Source of the DNA: a virus
Virus record (IMG/VR): IMGVR_UViG_3300025120_000250
Coordinates: 1-34,132 of that record
Reading direction: 5' to 3' (one strand)
Length of the DNA stretch: 34,132 bases
Shown piece by piece: positions 2,332 to 14,746 of the stretch. Each line of letters starts with the position of its first letter. The first letter of the stretch is position 1. Under the pieces are notes generated by a model that did no database searches, was not told the origin of the DNA, and saw nothing but the letters and a program-made list of their open reading frames with translations. Made by a program: the position numbers and the translations under genes.

Positions 2332-3539
2332 TGTACACAAGAAAAAACCTACCTACATCACAATACGAATTGTCAAAAGGAGTTGAGAATAAAGCATTTG
2401 GACGCTCTAATGATACCCGTAGAGATGATGACAAGATAAAGGATCTTGAGATAGGTTTGTATGATTTAGATTATTGTATAAAGTGGTATTTTGATAATAC
2501 CATTAAGCCTCGTGTTGACGATTTTGGACGAGTAGCTGAAGTGCCGGTTGTATATGGTGGTGGAGAGAAGTGGAAACAAATACAAGAAGATGGTTACTTG
2601 AGAGATGTTGGTGGGAAAGTGCTTAAGCCAATTATATCATACAGAAGAACAAGCATCTTAAAGAATAGAAATCTTGGAAACAAGATAGATGCCAACTTCC
2701 CACAACTATACAGATCTCAAGAAGTTAAATATACATCTCAAAATAAATACGATCAGTTTAGTAAGATAACAAACATAAAACCAGCAAGCACTTTTATAAA
2801 CACAATCATTCCAGAATATGTAGACTTAACATATGAAGTCGTAATATGGTCCGACTTTATTGAACACATGAATAGTATTGTAGAATCTGTAATATACTCT
2901 GAAGGTGCATACTGGGGAGAACCAGAACGATTTAAGTTCAGAACAAAGATAGACGATTTCCAAAATACTACTGATCAGATGGCTGATGCTGATAGGGTAA
3001 TTCGTACTTCATTCACATTAACATTATTTGGATACATTGTACCAGATGTATTAATCAAACACCTCAGTAAAAAAGTTGCAGACAAGACAAGCTCAACACA
3101 ACAACTCAATGTTGGACTTAATGTGGATGCTGACGAGTCAGTGTTTGAAGATACGCTGAGTGAAGGATTAGGTGCTGCGTCAGAACTTACAGATGGAGTA
3201 CAAATAGAATCTTCTCCAGTACCGTTGAGTGTAGACTCTCAAATCCCCGCTGCAACACTAACATTCTTAGGAACAAACGTAAGTGTACTTGCTACAAGTC
3301 AGACTTCAGACACCGCTACATTCCCAGGCAGCTTCTTAACTGCTCCAAGTGGATTACCAGCAACTAGTAAGAACGACTTTATATTCTTTGTGAATGGTCA
3401 AAACTGCGAACCAGCAGCTATATCAAACTTCACTGATAACGGAAACGGTACATGCACAGTTACATTTAACACTTCTGAACTAGGATTTACAATCGCAGCA
3501 ACTGATGAAGTAGTAGGAACCGGAAAGTTTAATACCTAA
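2331..3539 (+). CDS. Tail sheath terminator, gp15-like, with extra C-terminal domain
   Basis: A 402-residue protein. Residues 1-250 resemble gp15, the proximal tail sheath stabiliser that caps the tail and joins it to the neck. A conserved-looking core includes RVAEVPVVYGGGEKW (about 63-77), the KPIISYRRTS stretch and a long DLTYEVVIWSDFIEHMNS segment ahead of the tail-interacting region. T4 gp15 is about 272 residues. The additional 130 residues form a Ser/Thr-rich linker and a predicted beta-rich domain with FFVNGQNCEP and GNGTCTVTF strands (about 345-385). That domain looks like the small beta modules used as add-ons in marine phage structural proteins. Gene order (gp13, gp14, gp15) supports the call. 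Confidence 0.66.
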   Translation: MYTRKNLPTSQYELSKGVENKAFGRSNDTRRDDDKIKDLEIGLYDLDYCIKWYFDNTIKPRVDDFGRVAEVPVVYGGGEKWKQIQEDGYLRDVGGKVLKPIISYRRTSILKNRNLGNKIDANFPQLYRSQEVKYTSQNKYDQFSKITNIKPASTFINTIIPEYVDLTYEVVIWSDFIEHMNSIVESVIYSEGAYWGEPERFKFRTKIDDFQNTTDQMADADRVIRTSFTLTLFGYIVPDVLIKHLSKKVADKTSSTQQLNVGLNVDADESVFEDTLSEGLGAASELTDGVQIESSPVPLSVDSQIPAATLTFLGTNVSVLATSQTSDTATFPGSFLTAPSGLPATSKNDFIFFVNGQNCEPAAISNFTDNGNGTCTVTFNTSELGFTIAATDEVVGTGKFNT

Positions 3540-3541
3540 AT

Positions 3542-3943
3542 ATGGCAATAATACAACCAGGACAGTTAGCGACGGGATCATATAACATCAGCGGATCATT
3601 CTCTGGATCTTTCCAAGGAGATGGTAGCTCACTGTCTGGAGTGGGATCAAGCTTTGCATTAGTATCCGGAAGTGTCACAGCAAGCGTAGATATTCAAAAT
3701 ACGATATTCCTCATTAAGTCTGGAAGTAGTACCTTATTTACAATAGACAAGGAAGGATCAACCACAATATCAGGAAGTGCAGAAACCTTGTTATTAATAA
3801 AGAATCAAAACAGCACAGAAGTATTAAGTGTTAGTCAGAGTGGAGTGGTAGTTTTATCTACTCAATCCGCCGAACTCACAACAACAGCACCAAACGGAGG
3901 CATTTACTTTACTTCTTCATCGTTTTTTGTCGGTTTAGACTAA
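3542..3943 (+). CDS. Fibre-type virion protein, short
   Basis: A 133-residue Ser/Gly-rich protein without cysteine, signal peptide or membrane segments. Residues about 17-34 carry a GSFSGSFQGDGSSLSG motif that recurs in the 5779-6477 product as GSFSGSYVGDGSQLSG. After it come short alternating hydrophobic strands (LFTIDKEGSTTISG, VLSVSQSGVVVLS), as in beta-structured trimeric fibre shafts. It starts two bases after the gp15-like stop and ends just before a promoter, so it belongs with the neck operon. It is probably a small fibre or whisker component; no specific family is recognised. Confidence 0.55.
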   Translation: MAIIQPGQLATGSYNISGSFSGSFQGDGSSLSGVGSSFALVSGSVTASVDIQNTIFLIKSGSSTLFTIDKEGSTTISGSAETLLLIKNQNSTEVLSVSQSGVVVLSTQSAELTTTAPNGGIYFTSSSFFVGLD

Positions 3944-3950
3944 ACCTAGA

Positions 3951-3958
3951 TATTTATA
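3951..3958 (+). promoter_or_regulatory. Probable late promoter, TATTTATA
   Basis: A TATTTATA copy 46 bases before the ATG at 4005. The leader after it is very A-rich (repeated AATAAA/AAAATAAA) and has no Shine-Dalgarno sequence. Confidence 0.55.
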
Positions 3959-4004
3959 TAAAAGGTCATATTAAAAAAGAAATACACACAATAAATAAAA
4001 TAAA

Positions 4005-5309
4005 ATGGCAGATTGGAAAAAAGTAGTAGTCTCAGGATCAGCGGTATCGCAACTGAATAACGATGCAGGTTACTTGACCGCTGGAACAATAGGTGTACCT
4101 AATAGCTATTCAACAGCTTCTTTTAACGGAACACATCTAATAGCGAATACAACAACATCATCGTTGTCTTTTGCTTCTGCGTCAGGAGAGGGATTAAACA
4201 TAGCAGCAAACGCTACTTCAGATACGCTAACTTTTAGCTTAGATGCAATACCAAATGCTAGTTTAGCAAACGGGACTTTTAACGTAGGAGCTGGTGATGG
4301 TTTGACTGGAGGAGGCTCAACTGCATTAGGTGGCACAGCTACTGTTAATGTAGGAGCTGGTACACATATCACAGCCAACGCTAACGACATTGCTGTTAAC
4401 ACTAGCACATTAATAACAGCAATATCAGGATCTATTATAGATATAATTGCTGGAGACGTTAATGTTGATGCTGTTGGTGTTTCAACCATACAATCAACCG
4501 CTGTAGAAGGTAGTATGTTAAACACCAATACTGCCGATGGATCTACTATCGAAGTATCTAGTACCACATTATCGGTACTTAAAGTGCCAAATGCATTGAC
4601 AGTAGATAATGCTACCATACAATTAAATACTGGAACTACTTTTGATGGCGCTGCTGCTAGAACAATTAGTGTAAAAGATGGTGGAATTGATGCCGATGCG
4701 TTAGCATCAGGTGTTGCAGGCACCGGTCTTTCTGGTGGAGGTGGATCAGCACTATCTGTAGATTATGGCTCAAGTGCAGGTGATGCAGTAGAGGGTAACA
4801 CAACTATCACACTAACTCAAACGTCTGGTGAAATTGATATTACAGGTACCGCAGCACAAGCATTAGGAGGAGGACCTTCTTATACTATAGGTCTTGCCGA
4901 TACAATTTCTGGTAATAGAACATTCTCTAATGATGTTACCATAGGAGGTGATATGACAGTGAATGGTACAGCTTCATTCGCAAACACTGAAAACTTATTA
5001 GTAGCAGATAGATTTGTACTGTTTGCTTCTGGATCAGGTGCAGCAGGAGATGGTGGTATCGTAGTACAACAAGGTACTCAAGACGTAGGTGAATTATATG
5101 GCTTTGAAAATGGCATAGGAAGATGGGGATTCAAAACTGGGTTCAATGCATCAGCTTCAGCATTTACAGCACAAGCTTACGCTGGTGTCGTACAAGTAGG
5201 TACTGGACAAACGGGAGGCAGCACAGCACCAATATTTGGTGGATCTTCTAACGGTCACGGTACAATACACGTCGATACCGATGACGGTGAAATATGGATT
5301 TACTCATAA
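4005..5309 (+). CDS. Large fibre-type virion protein
   Basis: A 434-residue protein rich in Gly, Ser, Thr and Ala, with many short beta repeats such as GDGLTGGGSTALGGTATVNV (about 98-117) and GTGLSGGGGSALSVDYG (about 238-254). These repeats are typical of trimeric phage fibre shafts and knobs. The N-terminus MADWKKVVVSGS matches the start of the 5779-6477 product (MPNWKKVIVSGS). That shared start is probably a common virion-attachment or assembly module carrying different distal parts. It begins a promoter-led unit within the adhesin island. Function is inferred from composition and position: host-surface attachment or a side fibre. Confidence 0.62.
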   Translation: MADWKKVVVSGSAVSQLNNDAGYLTAGTIGVPNSYSTASFNGTHLIANTTTSSLSFASASGEGLNIAANATSDTLTFSLDAIPNASLANGTFNVGAGDGLTGGGSTALGGTATVNVGAGTHITANANDIAVNTSTLITAISGSIIDIIAGDVNVDAVGVSTIQSTAVEGSMLNTNTADGSTIEVSSTTLSVLKVPNALTVDNATIQLNTGTTFDGAAARTISVKDGGIDADALASGVAGTGLSGGGGSALSVDYGSSAGDAVEGNTTITLTQTSGEIDITGTAAQALGGGPSYTIGLADTISGNRTFSNDVTIGGDMTVNGTASFANTENLLVADRFVLFASGSGAAGDGGIVVQQGTQDVGELYGFENGIGRWGFKTGFNASASAFTAQAYAGVVQVGTGQTGGSTAPIFGGSSNGHGTIHVDTDDGEIWIYS

Positions 5310-5778: not shown

Positions 5779-6477
5779 ATGCCAAATTGGAAAAAAGTGA
5801 TTGTATCCGGATCGGATGCATCATTAAACATAGTAAGCGCAAACCAAATCTCCGGTTCCTTTTCTGGATCATACGTAGGAGATGGTTCACAATTATCAGG
5901 AATATCCACTACACCATTCCCATTCGTCGGAGATGCTCAAATAAGTGGATCGTTAATAGTATCTGCTTCTGCAACATCACAATCATTGTCTGTAATAGGA
6001 AGTGGTTCAACGGTATTTGATGTAATAGGAAGTGTAGGTACTCTATTTTCTGTCGATGACGATCTATCCGAAACACTATTTTCAGCTAATGACTTATCAG
6101 GATTTCCAGTATTACAAGCATCTGCTAGTGGTGATGTGTTTATAGGTAAAACACCTCAGTCATTGTATACTACTGCCGTAATAAGTAGCACAATTGGATC
6201 TACAACCACCGAATCAATATGCTCTTTAAGCACGAGCTCATATGATGGGGCATTTTTTGAATACACTGCTAGAGAAGTTGGAAATAGCAACTCACGAGCT
6301 GGAAGCATAATGGCAGTATGGAATGGTGCAAATATCAGCTTTACAGATACATCTACCAGAGATATAGGAAGCACATCTCTTCTCATAATAAAACCAATAA
6401 TATCAGGAAGTACAGCAAGATTGGTTGTTTATGGAGATAGCGGATTTAAAGTTAAAACAATAATCAAGGCAATATAG
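5779..6477 (+). CDS. Fibre-type virion protein with shared N-terminal module
   Basis: A 232-residue protein starting MPNWKKVIVSGSDAS, nearly the same as the start of the 4005-5309 product. It is followed by a GSFSGSYVGDGSQLSG motif (about 27-42) that matches the 3542-3943 product. It therefore combines two modules found separately in its neighbours. The middle is built of short Ser/Gly beta repeats (ISGSLIVSASATSQSLSVIG). The C-terminal 90 residues look like a compact beta domain (FFEYTAREVGNSNSRAGSIM) that could be a distal tip. Its stop codon shares its G with the GTG start of the first lectin gene. Likely part of a fibre; the partner is unknown. Confidence 0.6.
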   Translation: MPNWKKVIVSGSDASLNIVSANQISGSFSGSYVGDGSQLSGISTTPFPFVGDAQISGSLIVSASATSQSLSVIGSGSTVFDVIGSVGTLFSVDDDLSETLFSANDLSGFPVLQASASGDVFIGKTPQSLYTTAVISSTIGSTTTESICSLSTSSYDGAFFEYTAREVGNSNSRAGSIMAVWNGANISFTDTSTRDIGSTSLLIIKPIISGSTARLVVYGDSGFKVKTIIKAI

Positions 6478-7166
6478 TGGGTATAAGGAGAGGCTCCATA
6501 ACGACACCGGTGATAGCAGATGGGCTGATCATTAATCATGATGCAGCTAATAGAGCAAGCTATATTCCCAACGCTACTACAACATACAATACAATCGACT
6601 TGTCTCAAACAGGAACTTTCGTAAACTCACCCACATTTGTAAGCTCTACACCCTCATGGGATTTTGATGGAACAGATACATCTATTAATTGTGGTGATTA
6701 TGAAATGAACGCATTCCGCGGATTTGCTGTTGAAGCTTGGTTCAAATCAGATTCAACAAATAATCAAAGTAGAAGAATAGTCTCAAAAGATCAAGTAGGA
6801 GTTGCAGGTGCATGGATATTATGGACCAACTCATCAGATCTGAAATTTCAAGCATATGATGGAGGATGGGTAACTGCTACATATTCAGCTTACTCAGAAG
6901 ACAGCAATTGGCATCATGTAATAGCAAATGTATCTGGCGGTAGAGTTGGACTTTTTTTAGATGGTGTAAATGTTGCAACTACCTCTGGATTTTCATCACT
7001 TGATGATGCTGATAACGAAGTAATAGCAATAGGAGCAGATAGTGATCCTTCTTCTCCAGAGCATGTATGGAATGGCCAAATTGCAAACGTAAGAGTATAT
7101 AATAGAGGATTAGAAGAAAGCGAAATATTACACAACTACAATGCACTTAAAGGGAGATTTGAATAA
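6477..7166 (+). CDS. LamG/concanavalin-like lectin-fold protein, copy 1
   Basis: A 229-residue protein with a GTG start overlapping the previous TAG by one base. The N-terminus GSITTPVIADGLIINHDAAN (about 6-25) leads into a LamG-type jelly-roll: FAVEAWFKSD (about 82-91), SNWHHVIANVSGGRVGLFLD (about 143-162) and IANVRVYNRGLEESEILHNY (about 204-223). W-H-H-V followed by a G-x-x-x-x-L-x-x-D/NG strand and the final VYNR-x-L strand are hallmarks of laminin-G/concanavalin-like domains, which bind glycans or other surface ligands. It is the first of three tandem paralogues sharing both ends and differing in the middle. The lectin role on the virion is an inference. Confidence 0.75.
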   Translation: MGIRRGSITTPVIADGLIINHDAANRASYIPNATTTYNTIDLSQTGTFVNSPTFVSSTPSWDFDGTDTSINCGDYEMNAFRGFAVEAWFKSDSTNNQSRRIVSKDQVGVAGAWILWTNSSDLKFQAYDGGWVTATYSAYSEDSNWHHVIANVSGGRVGLFLDGVNVATTSGFSSLDDADNEVIAIGADSDPSSPEHVWNGQIANVRVYNRGLEESEILHNYNALKGRFE

Positions 7167-7852
7167 TGAAGTTTGGCAGCATAACAACTCCTATAATAAC
7201 TGATGGATTGGTATTCAATATGGATGCTGCAAATAGAGCAAGCTATCCTAGAACTGGTACTACTGCTACAGATACAGTTGGTAATAAAACTGGAACTATT
7301 TCTGGAGCAACATTTGTTAGTGCTGGACAAGGAGGATTTGATTTTGACGGGTCTGATGATGTGATAACCACAAATTTAGTATATAGCTTATCCTCTACGA
7401 CTACAGAATTTAGTTGTGGATGTTGGTTTAAAGCAGGAACACAGAGTGAAAATACATTATTAGTTTCTAACTATAATTTTACTCCAATACCATTTAACTT
7501 ATATTTGAAAAGTGATGGTACGTGTCAAGGAACCAGTAGAAATTCATCTAATACTACTATCAGTGTAGGATCTGGTGATACTTATGATGATAATGAATAT
7601 CACAATTTTTATTATCAACGAGATGCAAATAATACATATTACACCTACGTAGATGGAATACTAAAAAATACTGGTACTGCAACTTTAGGTGCTATAGCAA
7701 CAACTAATGCTATTCTAATAGGAAAACTTGGGCAATATACACAAGGTTATTTTGATGGTATCATTAACACAGTTCAAATATACAATCGCGCCTTATCCTC
7801 AACAGAAGTACTACACAACTACAATGCATTAAAATCAAGGTTCGGATTATGA
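7166..7852 (+). CDS. LamG/concanavalin-like lectin-fold protein, copy 2
   Basis: A 228-residue paralogue of copy 1. The ATG overlaps the previous TAA by one base. It starts MKFGSITTPIITDGLVFNMD and ends QIYNRALSSTEVLHNYNALK plus five residues. The middle has the LamG strands TEFSCGCWFKAG (about 75-86), YHNFYYQRDANNTYYTYVDG (about 143-162) and GYFDGIINTVQIYNRAL (about 194-210). A 39-base stretch near its start (7192-7230) is identical to copy 3 at 7881-7919. The likely role is a surface-ligand-binding head on a fibre or baseplate. It differs from copy 1 mainly in the loops that would form the binding face. Confidence 0.75.
   Translation: MKFGSITTPIITDGLVFNMDAANRASYPRTGTTATDTVGNKTGTISGATFVSAGQGGFDFDGSDDVITTNLVYSLSSTTTEFSCGCWFKAGTQSENTLLVSNYNFTPIPFNLYLKSDGTCQGTSRNSSNTTISVGSGDTYDDNEYHNFYYQRDANNTYYTYVDGILKNTGTATLGAIATTNAILIGKLGQYTQGYFDGIINTVQIYNRALSSTEVLHNYNALKSRFGL
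7192..7230 (+). repeat. 39-base exact direct repeat, unit 1
   Basis: Identical base for base to 7881-7919. It encodes the shared N-terminal segment of lectin copies 2 and 3 and could be a substrate for recombination between them. Confidence 0.85.
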
Positions 7853-8538
7853 GTGGAAGAGTAGGTAGCATAACGACGGGTATAATAACTGATGGATTGG
7901 TATTCAATATGGATGCTGCTAATAGGGCATCATATCCTAAAAGTGGTACTAATGCTTTTAATACTATTGATACATCAAATTCCGGAAGTTTAGAAAATGG
8001 AATAGAATATTTTCCTGATAGACATAGTGGAGGATTCAAATGGGATGCTACAGATAGTTATATTATATTAGATAGTAACTTTTTTTCACAAAATTATACA
8101 TCATTTACACATTGTGCTTTCGTAGAATTTTACAGCGTTGCTGGTTCTTCTATAATACTAGATGCTAGAGATAGCAGCGGCGATGGTGTTAGTTTTTTAA
8201 TGTCATCTCCTAGTGGTGACGTATTATATGCAGCTTTAGATTCAGGAAATGTTACAGGAGGTACTACAATATCTATTGATCAAGTTTATCATACAACACT
8301 AACTTATGATGGACAAACTGCTAAACTTTATTTGAATGGTGTGCCCGACGGAAGCTCTTCTACATCACAAGCATTTAACACTACAGCTAAACCCACAATT
8401 GGAATACGATCATTTAATATAGGATCTGCAACACCGTCTAGTATTTATTTATATCATATATGTTCATATAATCGCGCCTTATCAGCCACAGAAGTACTAC
8501 ATAACTACGACGCATTAAAGGGTAGATTTAACTTATAA
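7849..8538 (+). CDS. LamG/concanavalin-like lectin-fold protein, copy 3
   Basis: A 229-residue paralogue starting MSGRVGSITTGIITDGLVFN; the ATG overlaps the preceding TGA (ATGA, four bases). LamG-like strands are visible at VYHTTLTYDGQTAKLYLNG (about 145-163), and the C-terminus HICSYNRALSATEVLHNYDA parallels copies 1 and 2. The central part differs from both. It ends 17 bases before the next ATG. Together the three genes look like a family made by tandem duplication, with constant termini and variable cores. A TATTTATA copy also occurs inside this gene at 8446-8453. Confidence 0.74.
   Translation: MSGRVGSITTGIITDGLVFNMDAANRASYPKSGTNAFNTIDTSNSGSLENGIEYFPDRHSGGFKWDATDSYIILDSNFFSQNYTSFTHCAFVEFYSVAGSSIILDARDSSGDGVSFLMSSPSGDVLYAALDSGNVTGGTTISIDQVYHTTLTYDGQTAKLYLNGVPDGSSSTSQAFNTTAKPTIGIRSFNIGSATPSSIYLYHICSYNRALSATEVLHNYDALKGRFNL
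7881..7919 (+). repeat. 39-base exact direct repeat, unit 2
   Basis: Second copy of the repeat at 7192-7230, at the equivalent position in lectin copy 3. Confidence 0.85.
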
Positions 8539-12649: not shown

Positions 12650-13138
12650 ATGGCAAATTTAATAGAAAATGATAAAATGTTTTACACCAACTATGAGCCC
12701 AAGGTGCAAAACAGATTCATCCTCGAAGTTGATGGGTTACCATCTTACTTATGTAAAAAAGTATCTCGACCTCAATTAGAGTGCGGAGAGGTTGTACTAG
12801 ATCATATTAACATCATCAGAAAGATGAAAGGTAAGTGTAAGTGGGGCGACATTACAATTACCATGTATGATGCAATCGTACCATCCGGAGCACAAGCTGT
12901 AATGGAGTGGGTTCGTACATCACACGAATCAGTAACTGGACGAGATGGATATGCAGATTTCTACAAGAAAGATTTTGATATCTTCGTATTAGGACCAGTA
13001 GGTGATAAGATTGAGAACTGGAGTGTAAAAGGTGCTTACATTAAGACAGCACAATTTGGAGACATGGATTGGTCTACAGAAACACCAGTTGAAATTGCAC
13101 TTACATTAGGAGTAGACTACTGCGTATTAGAGTATTAA
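12650..13138 (+). CDS. Tail tube protein, gp19-like
   Basis: A 162-residue protein, almost the same length as T4 gp19 (163). The N-terminus includes NDKMFYTNYEPKVQNRFILE (about 7-26), and a later VKGAYIKTAQFGDMDWSTET stretch (about 125-144) matches the conserved tail tube fold of contractile phages. EIALTLGVDYCVLEY at the end forms the last strand. Hexameric rings stack to make the inner tube under the sheath. It lies directly after the sheath gene and is followed by a strong intrinsic terminator, as expected for a highly expressed single-gene unit. Confidence 0.92.
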   Translation: MANLIENDKMFYTNYEPKVQNRFILEVDGLPSYLCKKVSRPQLECGEVVLDHINIIRKMKGKCKWGDITITMYDAIVPSGAQAVMEWVRTSHESVTGRDGYADFYKKDFDIFVLGPVGDKIENWSVKGAYIKTAQFGDMDWSTETPVEIALTLGVDYCVLEY

Positions 13139-13250: not shown

Positions 13251-14141
13251 ATGAGCAAAGTTGTAAACGACGATTATCCAAATAATCAAAAAAATCCCTT
13301 AAGCGACGAACAATTAAAGCAGATGGTGATGGCAGATCATGTCAATTCCGCTTCTAACGACGTAGCACTTACTAAGGGTGAATCCGTAAACGTACCTACT
13401 GAAATAATCGCATTACCAAGTAAGGGTAAGTTTTATCCAGAAGGACATCCACTAAGATCTGGAAAAATTGAAATGAAGTATATGACCGCTAAAGAAGAAG
13501 ACATCTTAGCGTCTCAGAACTTAATTAAGCAAGGAGTAGTGATAGATAAGCTACTACAATCTCTTATTGTAACAAAGATCAATTACAACGATATATTGAC
13601 AGTTGATAAGAATGCGATCTTTATTGCAGCTAGAATTCTAGCATACGGAGAAGATTACGAAGTAGAGATCACTTGTCCGGATTGTGGTGAGAAGAGTAAG
13701 CATGTTATTGATCTTCAGCAATTTGAAGAAAAAGCAATCGATTGGAGCATATTCAAAGAAGGAGAAGCAACACACAAGTTTTCACTTCCAGCAGCTAAAA
13801 GCGAGTTGACATTAAAGATGCTAACTCATGGAGACGAAAAAGCAATTGAACAAGCAGCAAAAGCAAACAAGAAGAGATCAAAAGCTTCTGGAGTTGATAG
13901 AGATTTAACGACAAGAATGAAGCAAGTAATTGCTGCAGTCGATGGTAACGAAGATCGAGGATTTATTAACAGCTACGTTGACAACATGTTATCAAGAGAT
14001 TCGCTAGCTCTACGTAAGCACTTGAAAGAAGTAACACCAGATATCGATACTACAATATATTTTGAATGTCCACATTGTGGTCATGAGGCGTCTAACATGC
14101 AACTTCCGATTGACGTCGGGTTTTTTTGGCCTGGGGTCTAG
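13251..14141 (+). CDS. gp26-like baseplate/tail assembly protein with zinc-finger cysteines
   Basis: A 296-residue protein I assign to the T4 gp26-type baseplate family, using IIALPSKGKFYPEGHPLRSG (about 52-71) and a helical core AKEEDILASQNLIKQGVVID (about 80-99). Two CxxC pairs, CPDC (142-145) and CPHC (273-276), are positioned to bind one zinc ion. T4 gp26 is about 208 residues. The gene sits between the tail tube and tape measure genes, where contractile and siphophage tails carry their tail assembly chaperone pair. Its end overlaps another frame at a T7 run, so a longer product of about 361 residues is likely. It may therefore act as a tape-measure chaperone rather than only a baseplate part. 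Confidence 0.7.
   Translation: MSKVVNDDYPNNQKNPLSDEQLKQMVMADHVNSASNDVALTKGESVNVPTEIIALPSKGKFYPEGHPLRSGKIEMKYMTAKEEDILASQNLIKQGVVIDKLLQSLIVTKINYNDILTVDKNAIFIAARILAYGEDYEVEITCPDCGEKSKHVIDLQQFEEKAIDWSIFKEGEATHKFSLPAAKSELTLKMLTHGDEKAIEQAAKANKKRSKASGVDRDLTTRMKQVIAAVDGNEDRGFINSYVDNMLSRDSLALRKHLKEVTPDIDTTIYFECPHCGHEASNMQLPIDVGFFWPGV
14121..14127 (+). other. Candidate programmed frameshift site (T7 run)
   Basis: In the gp26-like frame the codons are GGG TTT TTT TGG CCT GGG GTC TAG. Skipping one T (+1), or slipping back two, enters a frame that continues for 69 codons into a well-formed helical extension. The run of seven T after GGG allows tRNA-Phe to re-pair. Tail assembly chaperone genes in this genomic position are well known for programmed frameshifts. 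Confidence 0.6.
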
Positions 14142-14337
14142 CTATAAGGCCCGCCTATACGACCAACTGTTTGAACTCATGTATTATGGAAAAATGGGAT
14201 GGTCATGGACAGAACTCTATCAACTACCGGTACACATACGAGCATACTACTACCGTAAGCTTGCCGATATTAGAGAAAAAGAAAATGAAGCAGAGAAGGC
14301 TCAATACGATAAAATTCAGAGCCAAGCACGAAGATAG
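14128..14337 (+). CDS. Frameshift extension of the gp26-like protein
   Basis: The frame entered after the T7 run encodes GLGSSYKARLYDQLFELMYY, then GKMGWSWTELYQLPVHIRAY and a basic helical tail (YYRKLADIREKENEAEKAQY), 69 residues in all. The sequence is protein-like: a YYGK-x-G-W-S-W-x-E-L-Y-x-L-P-V-x-x-R core followed by a charged helix. It resembles C-terminal parts of T4-like baseplate/chaperone proteins. No ATG with a usable leader starts this frame near its beginning. The longest open stretch begins with a TTG at 14062 deep inside the upstream gene, and one internal ATG lies at 14083. A frameshift fusion of about 361 residues (+1) is therefore the simplest reading. Separate initiation remains possible. 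Confidence 0.6.
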   Translation, partial: GLGSSYKARLYDQLFELMYYGKMGWSWTELYQLPVHIRAYYYRKLADIREKENEAEKAQYDKIQSQARR

Positions 14338-14342
14338 TGTGA

Positions 14343-14370
14343 AGCCATCCTAATAAGGGTGGCTTTTTTT
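14343..14370 (+). terminator. Intrinsic terminator after the frameshift frame
   Basis: Stem AGCCATCC with GGGTGGCT (8 bp, one G-U pair), 6-base loop TAATAA, then a run of six T following the stem. It starts six bases after the 14337 stop, which supports the extension frame as the true gene end. Confidence 0.85.
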
Positions 14371-14382
14371 ATTATTCCAAAC

Positions 14383-14404: not shown

Positions 14405-14746
14405 ATGGACTCAAGAGAGAAAGAACTACGCGAAAACATTCGAGAATATCTTAAAGAAGCACCAAAGCATTTAGATGAAGCTGGATTGACTGGATGGGTC
14501 GTTGATAAGATTGCAGGCGGTATGAAGTGGGCTACCAACCGAAAAGCTGATTACCAGTATGACTTCTTACTTAAACACAGAGACTTCAAAGGTCTCGCTA
14601 AAAAGTTTAAGATGTCAGATGCAAACTGGGAGCGTACAGCTAAAGGATGGTTAGCTAAAGATCCAAAAGGCTTTGCTAAGGTGTTGAGATATAATATGGG
14701 CAACTCTCGTATCAATAACTTATTAAAAAAACATAAGCTAAGCTAA
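14405..14746 (+). CDS. Small basic protein before the tape measure, unknown
   Basis: A 113-residue basic, helical protein. The N-terminal 20 residues are a charged helix (REKELRENIREYLKEAPKHL). A GLTGWVVDKIAGGMKWATNR stretch follows (about 27-46), then a C-terminal domain with many Lys and Trp residues (KFKMSDANWERTAKGWLAKD, about 67-86). No signal peptide, clear membrane segment or enzyme motif. The tape measure GTG comes six bases after its stop, so the two are co-expressed. It could be a tape-measure partner. Family not recognised. Confidence 0.5.
   Translation: MDSREKELRENIREYLKEAPKHLDEAGLTGWVVDKIAGGMKWATNRKADYQYDFLLKHRDFKGLAKKFKMSDANWERTAKGWLAKDPKGFAKVLRYNMGNSRINNLLKKHKLS

Follow-up and report, generated by a model that had tools for sequence, protein, structure and literature searches.

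A predicted programmed +1 frameshift at UUU_Y joins a gp26-like protein to a conserved extension in diverse contractile-tailed phages

Tail chaperones of the lambda type bind the tape measure protein with their N-terminal part and the tail tube protein with their C-terminal part (PMC5009743). Systems of the lambda G/GT kind rely mostly on -1 frameshifting at tandem slippery heptamers (Xu, Hendrix and Duda; reviewed in PMC5009743), whereas the locus described here combines a predicted +1 shift at a single UUU_Y with an N-part that is a T4 gp26-type (PF12322) protein. T4 figures in a standard review as the exception to the rule that tail chaperones are made by frameshifting (PMC5009743). The tail chaperones of T4-like phages were later identified and, going by the title of that paper, reportedly arise by a non-frameshift mechanism (Vladimirov, Gautam and Davidson, 2022). 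T4 genes 26 and 51 are separate and lie on opposite strands. The T4 chaperones named by Vladimirov et al. in 2022 are said to be gp26 and gp51, and the standing of gp26 and gp51 as T4 chaperones is already published. Frameshifting by +1 is also found in the tail or capsid genes of Bacillus phage SPP1. Here, we followed up a sequence-only reading of a phage genome fragment of 34,132 nucleotides (IMG/VR record IMGVR_UViG_3300025120_000250, hereafter the window), which had pointed to a frameshift at a run of seven T in a gp26-like gene. We propose, with a probability of roughly 90%, that a programmed +1 shift at UUU_Y in this gene gives rise to a tail assembly chaperone in two forms, one short and one long.

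The gp26-like gene and its overlapping extension

The gp26-like gene (Table 1) scores 65.6 bits against PF12322, above the curated cut-off of 24.5, and its short product, which carries two zinc-ribbon-like CxxC pairs and ends in ...DVGFFWPGV, is predicted with confidence by AlphaFold2 (pLDDT 82). Foldseek placed the SP-15 baseplate hub subunit first among the viral matches (E 1e-19) and found structural likenesses of the short form in the predicted gp26-type proteins of many phages; against the PDB it returned nothing significant, with the HK97 TAC (2ob9) at E 2.1. A search of the genome contigs with SP-15 gp26 as the query gave no match. In the window and in annotated relatives, the gp26-like gene is preceded by the tail tube gene and followed by a long gene where a tape measure would be expected; the product of this long gene has no family match of its own in the window. 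Such an order is typical of tail assembly chaperones, and the gp26-like gene and its extension are therefore most likely a chaperone pair of this kind. The earlier suggestion that the gp26-type protein works as the short form of such a pair remains the best-supported reading, with the overlap conserved and a fusion of the two parts found in one relative. Elsewhere in the window, three adjacent ORFs (6477-7166, 7166-7852 and 7849-8538) look like tandem paralogues, sharing a GSITT...DGL...N.DAANRASY start and a ...EVLHNYDALKGRF end, and are probably LamG-like tail proteins.

The 3' end of the gp26-like gene reads GTC GGG TTT TTT TGG CCT GGG GTC TAG, and the overlapping-frame arrangement that had been noticed there is confirmed as real. 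GGG at 14118-14120 is followed by seven T (14121-14127), the original-frame stop begins at 14139, and the overlapping 69-residue protein-like extension is borne out by its coordinates, its conservation and a dN/dS of 0.187. The +1 frame is open from before the T run to the TAG at 14335-14337, with exactly 69 codons from GGC at 14128 to 14334, and the last 0-frame Phe codon is either 14121-14123 or 14124-14126, the product being identical either way. The structure prediction gives the extension, folded apart from the short form, three helices (pLDDT 86). A terminator had been placed six bases beyond the stop of the extension, and the hairpin scan recovered it at 14341-14366, with a stem GCCATCC...GGGTGGC followed by T7. 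An Rfam Phe_leader match at 14284-14371 was below threshold and probably reflects the terminator signal.

Table 1. Features of the tail chaperone locus in the window.
Feature	Position	Strand	Basis
Tail tube protein, gp19-like, upstream neighbour	12650..13138	+	phrog_4542 E 1.9e-26; PF06841 E 4.7e-5
gp26-like gene, short form (TAC-N, 296 aa)	13251..14141	+	PF12322 T4_baseplate E 6.8e-18; phrog_150 baseplate hub E 2.7e-21
Shift site TTT TTT T(GG)	14121..14127	+	TTTTTT 90, TTTCTT 9, TTTCTA 2, CTTTTT 1 of 102 loci
Predicted +1-frame extension, 69 codons + stop, TAC-C ('T') domain, GLGSSYKARLYDQLFELMYYGKMGWSWTELYQLPVHIRAYYYRKL...	14128..14337	+	conserved in relatives; dN/dS 0.187
Candidate downstream hairpin, GGGUCU (14134-14139), loop (14140-14146), AGGCCC (14147-14152)	14134..14152	+	covariation
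0-frame stop TAG, end of short form	14139..14141	+	sequence read directly
Intrinsic terminator-like hairpin and T tract, 3' of extension	14341..14373	+	11 pairs, 5 GC, then T run
Small ORF between chaperone gene and tape measure, without convincing family match	14405..14746	+	profile searches
Presumed tape measure protein, 1061 aa	14753..17938	+	position and length; same-position genes annotated tape measure in relatives

Conservation of the +1 frame and the question of a separate start

Relatives were collected by two IMG/VR scans, one with the gene and one with the extension, together with a search of phage records, which yielded about 135 loci; once duplicates and truncated contigs were removed, 102 loci had a complete extension and a recognisable shift codon. 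Wherever the extension could be placed among the roughly 135 loci it lay in the +1 frame, with the exception of one locus (L039). Beyond the gp26 stop, the +1 frame continues for 61-98 codons without a stop in 102/102 non-redundant loci, while just 20 of them have a -1 frame that extends to 60 codons. Across 44 codons in a clade of 52 loci, we counted 0 stops in the +1 frame versus 198 and 75 in the other two frames, and the median dN/dS was 0.187 in the +1 frame versus 1.9 and 1.2 elsewhere (NG86, ungapped; with synonymous sites near saturation, these values are approximate). Judged by these substitution patterns, the comparison shows protein-level selection on the +1 extension. The arrangement first seen in the window, a short ORF with an extension overlapping it at the slip site, is thereby found to be conserved in its relatives. 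These include Flavobacterium phages and Flavobacteriales MAGs, and further +1 members are 14 loci of a Streptomyces-phage family, 7 MAG contigs and the distant phages GXN1, RM378, SP-15 and LIS04. More than 100 independent contigs carry the extension and purifying selection acts on its +1 frame; to regard it as a relic or as an error of sequencing is scarcely credible. The same module was also observed on two small contigs (L172 and L178) binned into Alphaproteobacteria and Thaumarchaeota MAGs, which are probably mis-binned phage contigs.

The extension might instead be a separate gene, expressed by re-initiation or from a weak start near the gp26 stop. This is how the homologous domain is annotated in T4-like cyanophages: in cyanophage-type gp26 loci (L182-L261) it lies at -1 after N TTT TTC, with an ATG following the gp26 stop by 5 nt in 44/44 non-redundant loci, so that in these phages either a separate gene or a -1 product is possible. 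Moreover, 45 of the 102 relatives have an internal ATG in the extension, 58 nt downstream of the shift codon. However, initiation at this inner ATG would lose the first conserved helix, the position of potential starts varies between clades, and the two parts are fused in L039. The stretch of open +1 frame ahead of the shift codon is at most 12 nt long in 39/102 loci, and 35 of those 39 lack ATG, GTG and TTG alike between the point of opening and the fourth codon beyond the shift. A start codon is missing in these 35 loci and would hardly find space there, and the +1 frame must therefore be entered within about 20-30 nt around the Phe codons. The sequence-only reading had found no good start leading into the extension, which holds in the window, where the in-frame TTG, GTG and ATG codons all lie inside the zinc-finger region and none is conserved. 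It had also named a separate, well-initiated downstream gene in related genomes as evidence against a frameshift; no such gene is conserved in the window's group (102 relatives), and no start position is kept across clades. We therefore consider a separate gene very unlikely, and favor entry into the extension by frameshifting.

The exceptional locus, L039 (IMG/VR 3300025030_000361), is the one genome found to fuse the two frames, a possibility that had been raised from the window alone. It carries a tandem duplication of the gp26-like gene (2501-4349), in which the short copy (2501-3358) ends in ...VNFFWPGN and has no conserved extension, and a diverged second copy follows directly and runs to 4349, with N-part and extension in one frame. 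The junction of this fused copy is ...NFFGITADYGPILHTEIFDL... (NFFGITADYGPILHTEIFDLVFHGQGGFTYDAVYNMPIWIRRFY, with TTC TTC instead of the T run), and it aligns without a gap at the junction with the predicted +1 products of the window and other loci. The alignment supports the view that the long form is a real protein.

The analysis also has a practical side, in that several deposited genomes either leave out the extension or show it as a small, truncated ORF. Among the deposited annotations (L004, L002, L147, L005 and L001), a late start reduces the extension to a truncated small ORF in SP-15, immuto and LuckySocke, Mel-JY01 has it as a separate overlapping ORF, and LIS04 omits it.

Direction of the shift and candidate signals

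The sequence-only reading had left the direction as +1 (or -2), and of these only +1 stands. Of the two conserved codons, the first is TTT with a pyrimidine after it in 101/102 loci and CTT with a T after it in the remaining one; a P-site codon able to re-pair one base forward (UUU_Y or CUU_U) is present in 102/102. The shift region reads TTT TTT TGG in Rhodothermus phage RM378, TTT TTT CAC in Bacillus phage SP-15, TTT TTT AGT in Listeria phage LIS04 and TTC TTT CGT in Streptococcus phage GXN1, and the Streptomyces LuckySocke family (14 loci and the isolate) always has CTR TTT C, as CTR TTT CAG or CGN. The sites without a T run (TTT CTT, TTT CTA, TTT CAG and TTT CGN) share with all others only a UUU followed by a pyrimidine. 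The T run that had drawn attention in the window is thus only partly conserved, being kept as TTTTTT in 90/102 loci and replaced by other UUU_Y sites in the rest; as far as these variants indicate, the T run is dispensable and a UUU followed by C or U is essential.

We read the shift as +1 because only re-pairing of tRNA-Phe from UUU to UUU or UUC fits every site variant. A -2 shift of the ribosome along the T run, of the kind seen in phage Mu, and RNA polymerase slippage at the T7/A7 tract, which would create +1-frame mRNAs, both fail because they need a T run, which is missing in some lineages. The -2 shift would be permitted by the T7 run of the window and would lead into the identical frame, but the sites TTT CTT TGG, TTT CTA TGG, CTG TTT CAG and CTA TTT CGT re-pair poorly at -2 and can do so at +1. 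The natural fusion in L039 has FFG, not FFFG, and its junction agrees with a +1 rather than a -2 product, which together make a -2 shift highly improbable. Polymerase slippage, for which the window offers a homopolymer of seven, should yield both frames, yet the -1 frame is unconserved, and several lineages keep the arrangement without a homopolymer of at least four T (TTTCTTTGG, CTGTTTCAG); we regard slippage as more improbable still. A +1 shift of tRNA-Phe thus remains our preferred reading. Work by Schwartz and Curran in 1997 is said to have found UUU-Y sites prone to +1 shifting in E. coli constructs. UUU-UGG was also proposed as the +1 site in yopN-tyeA, where its mutation failed to abolish the fusion (PMC3789692), a result that counts against the UUU_Y +1 reading.

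An upstream SD-like stimulator is not apparent, as an SD-like 4-mer occurs in 14/102 loci and is unconserved, and the A-site codons of the 102 loci are all sense codons, with no stop or obvious rare codon among them, which sets these loci apart from classical +1 sites. The candidate signal lies downstream, in a hairpin of 6 bp with a 7-nt loop, located 7-10 nt 3' of the shift codon and including the first base of the 0-frame stop. In the window's clade it takes the form GGGUCU(A/G) with (U/C)AGRCCC, from 10 nt after the first UUU. Across 29 relatives 97.5% of cells are paired, with changes on both sides in 4/7 pairs; none of 500 shuffles matched this and slid controls gave 12-54%. Compensatory replacements are seen in two loci (L010, GCCUCUA/UAGAGGC; L031, GGGCUUA/UAAGCCC), and where the protein has K-A instead of R-P, AGGCCC is shifted by one base yet retained. 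The 3' arm shows unusual synonymous conservation (P as CCC in 31/33, A as GCC in 18/18). Measured against shuffles, the fold is of ordinary stability in the window (z -0.15), with z values of about -1 to -2.6 in several relatives. The hairpin is absent from several other clades with the same frame arrangement and is therefore not universally required; it is at most a clade-specific stimulator, which probably raises the shift rate in the window's clade. Two other structures were set aside: a stem GGCCU/AGGCC, dropped in favor of the 14134-14152 hairpin, which persists when AGGCCC moves by one base, and a terminator-like hairpin at 14105-14120 just 5' of the T run, which is unconserved, with varying preceding codons (GGG, AAC, GAC and TCC). 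Over the whole window, SD-like 4-mers stand upstream of 3/30 genes and leaders are A-rich, which suggests a Bacteroidota-type host.

Proposed mechanism and relation to known systems

We propose that most ribosomes would terminate at 14139 and release the short form (TAC-N), while a minority at UUU UUU, with tRNA-Phe (anticodon GAA) in the P site, would slip one base forward. With a pyrimidine after UUU, the tRNA could re-pair one base on with UUU or UUC, and the ribosome would then read the +1 frame as far as 14337, giving a predicted long form of 361 residues (TAC-NC) whose C-terminal domain is helical. If the analogy with lambda G/GT holds, both forms may coat the tape measure protein and bring in the tail tube protein. 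The sequence-only reading had the extended form bind the tape measure; the same analogy would reverse these roles, with the N-part binding the tape measure and the extension the tail tube protein. We infer the shifting in the cell, its rate, its stimulation by the hairpin and the chaperone function. Members of the extension family gave weak matches to phrog_634 'baseplate hub assembly catalyst' (the gp51 name), to PF20546 (DUF6760; 12/44 extensions) and to phrog_32580 'tail assembly chaperone' (E 0.045; 2/44 extensions). The long form is collinear full-length with the T4 gp51 family profile, albeit weakly (hhalign E 4.6e-4, probability 33%), with the extension falling on the gp51 C-terminus (extension alone against the gp51 profile, E 0.015, also weak); T4 gp51 as a single sequence gave no match. 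In a phage-like tail module of the Amycolatopsis plasmid pAmyja1 (L138:7528-8637), we observed an ORF (7995-8171) that resembles the extension (40% over 55 residues) and is placed between tail tube and tape measure.

Compared with known +1 systems, the window gene resembles prfB (RF2), in which the P-site tRNA re-pairs one base forward as it would here; prfB has an A-site stop and an upstream SD-like stimulator, whereas the window gene has neither and carries a downstream hairpin instead. Listeria phage PSA and archaeal HSTV-2 likewise have +1 shifts in virion or tail assembly genes, but the PSA shift involves a proline codon before a stop or a pseudoknot (PMC5009743), in contrast to the UUU before a sense pyrimidine codon here. 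The tail chaperones of Vandenendeviridae and Andersonviridae, with GTTTTT (PMC12846349), resemble the present case in their poly-T site, contractile tail and evidence from comparison, but differ in shifting by -1, and a hairpin goes unmentioned in the relevant passages of that source. The UUU_Y +1 recoding, the hairpin and the breadth of the family are apparently new: the +1 form is undescribed in the literature searched, although subscription papers lay largely outside its scope and priority is therefore uncertain. The family provides a large natural data set for UUU_Y +1 recoding, which is otherwise known mainly from constructs, and a candidate hairpin stimulator in phages with scarce Shine-Dalgarno use.

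With T4, the window gene shares the PF12322 N-part, and the gp51 C-terminus is weakly collinear with the extension. T4 has two separate genes and no frameshift, whereas the window has one gene with a predicted +1 shift, and a two-gene layout like T4 gp26 and gp51 appears inside the frameshifting family only in L039, as a short gene and a fused long one. In Rhizobium phage IC12, Xanthomonas phage XacN1, Pseudomonas phage Paride and one jumbo phage the extension is found at -1, and from a comparison of these sites the same Phe-Phe codons bear different solutions in different lineages. We think it fairly likely that a +1 frameshift at a lone UUU_Y, without help from a stop or SD and aided by a hairpin in one clade, is a widespread route to T4-type chaperones in phages of Bacteroidota, cyanobacteria, Bacillota, Rhodothermus and Streptomyces, with the two genes of T4 and the -1 shift or re-initiation of cyanophages as alternative solutions at the same Phe-Phe codons. 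With the +1 shift, the -1 or separate start of cyanophages and the fused second gene of L039, changes in the system can be traced in sequence, and the family thereby bridges the T4 exception of the standard review and the later proposal of separate genes.
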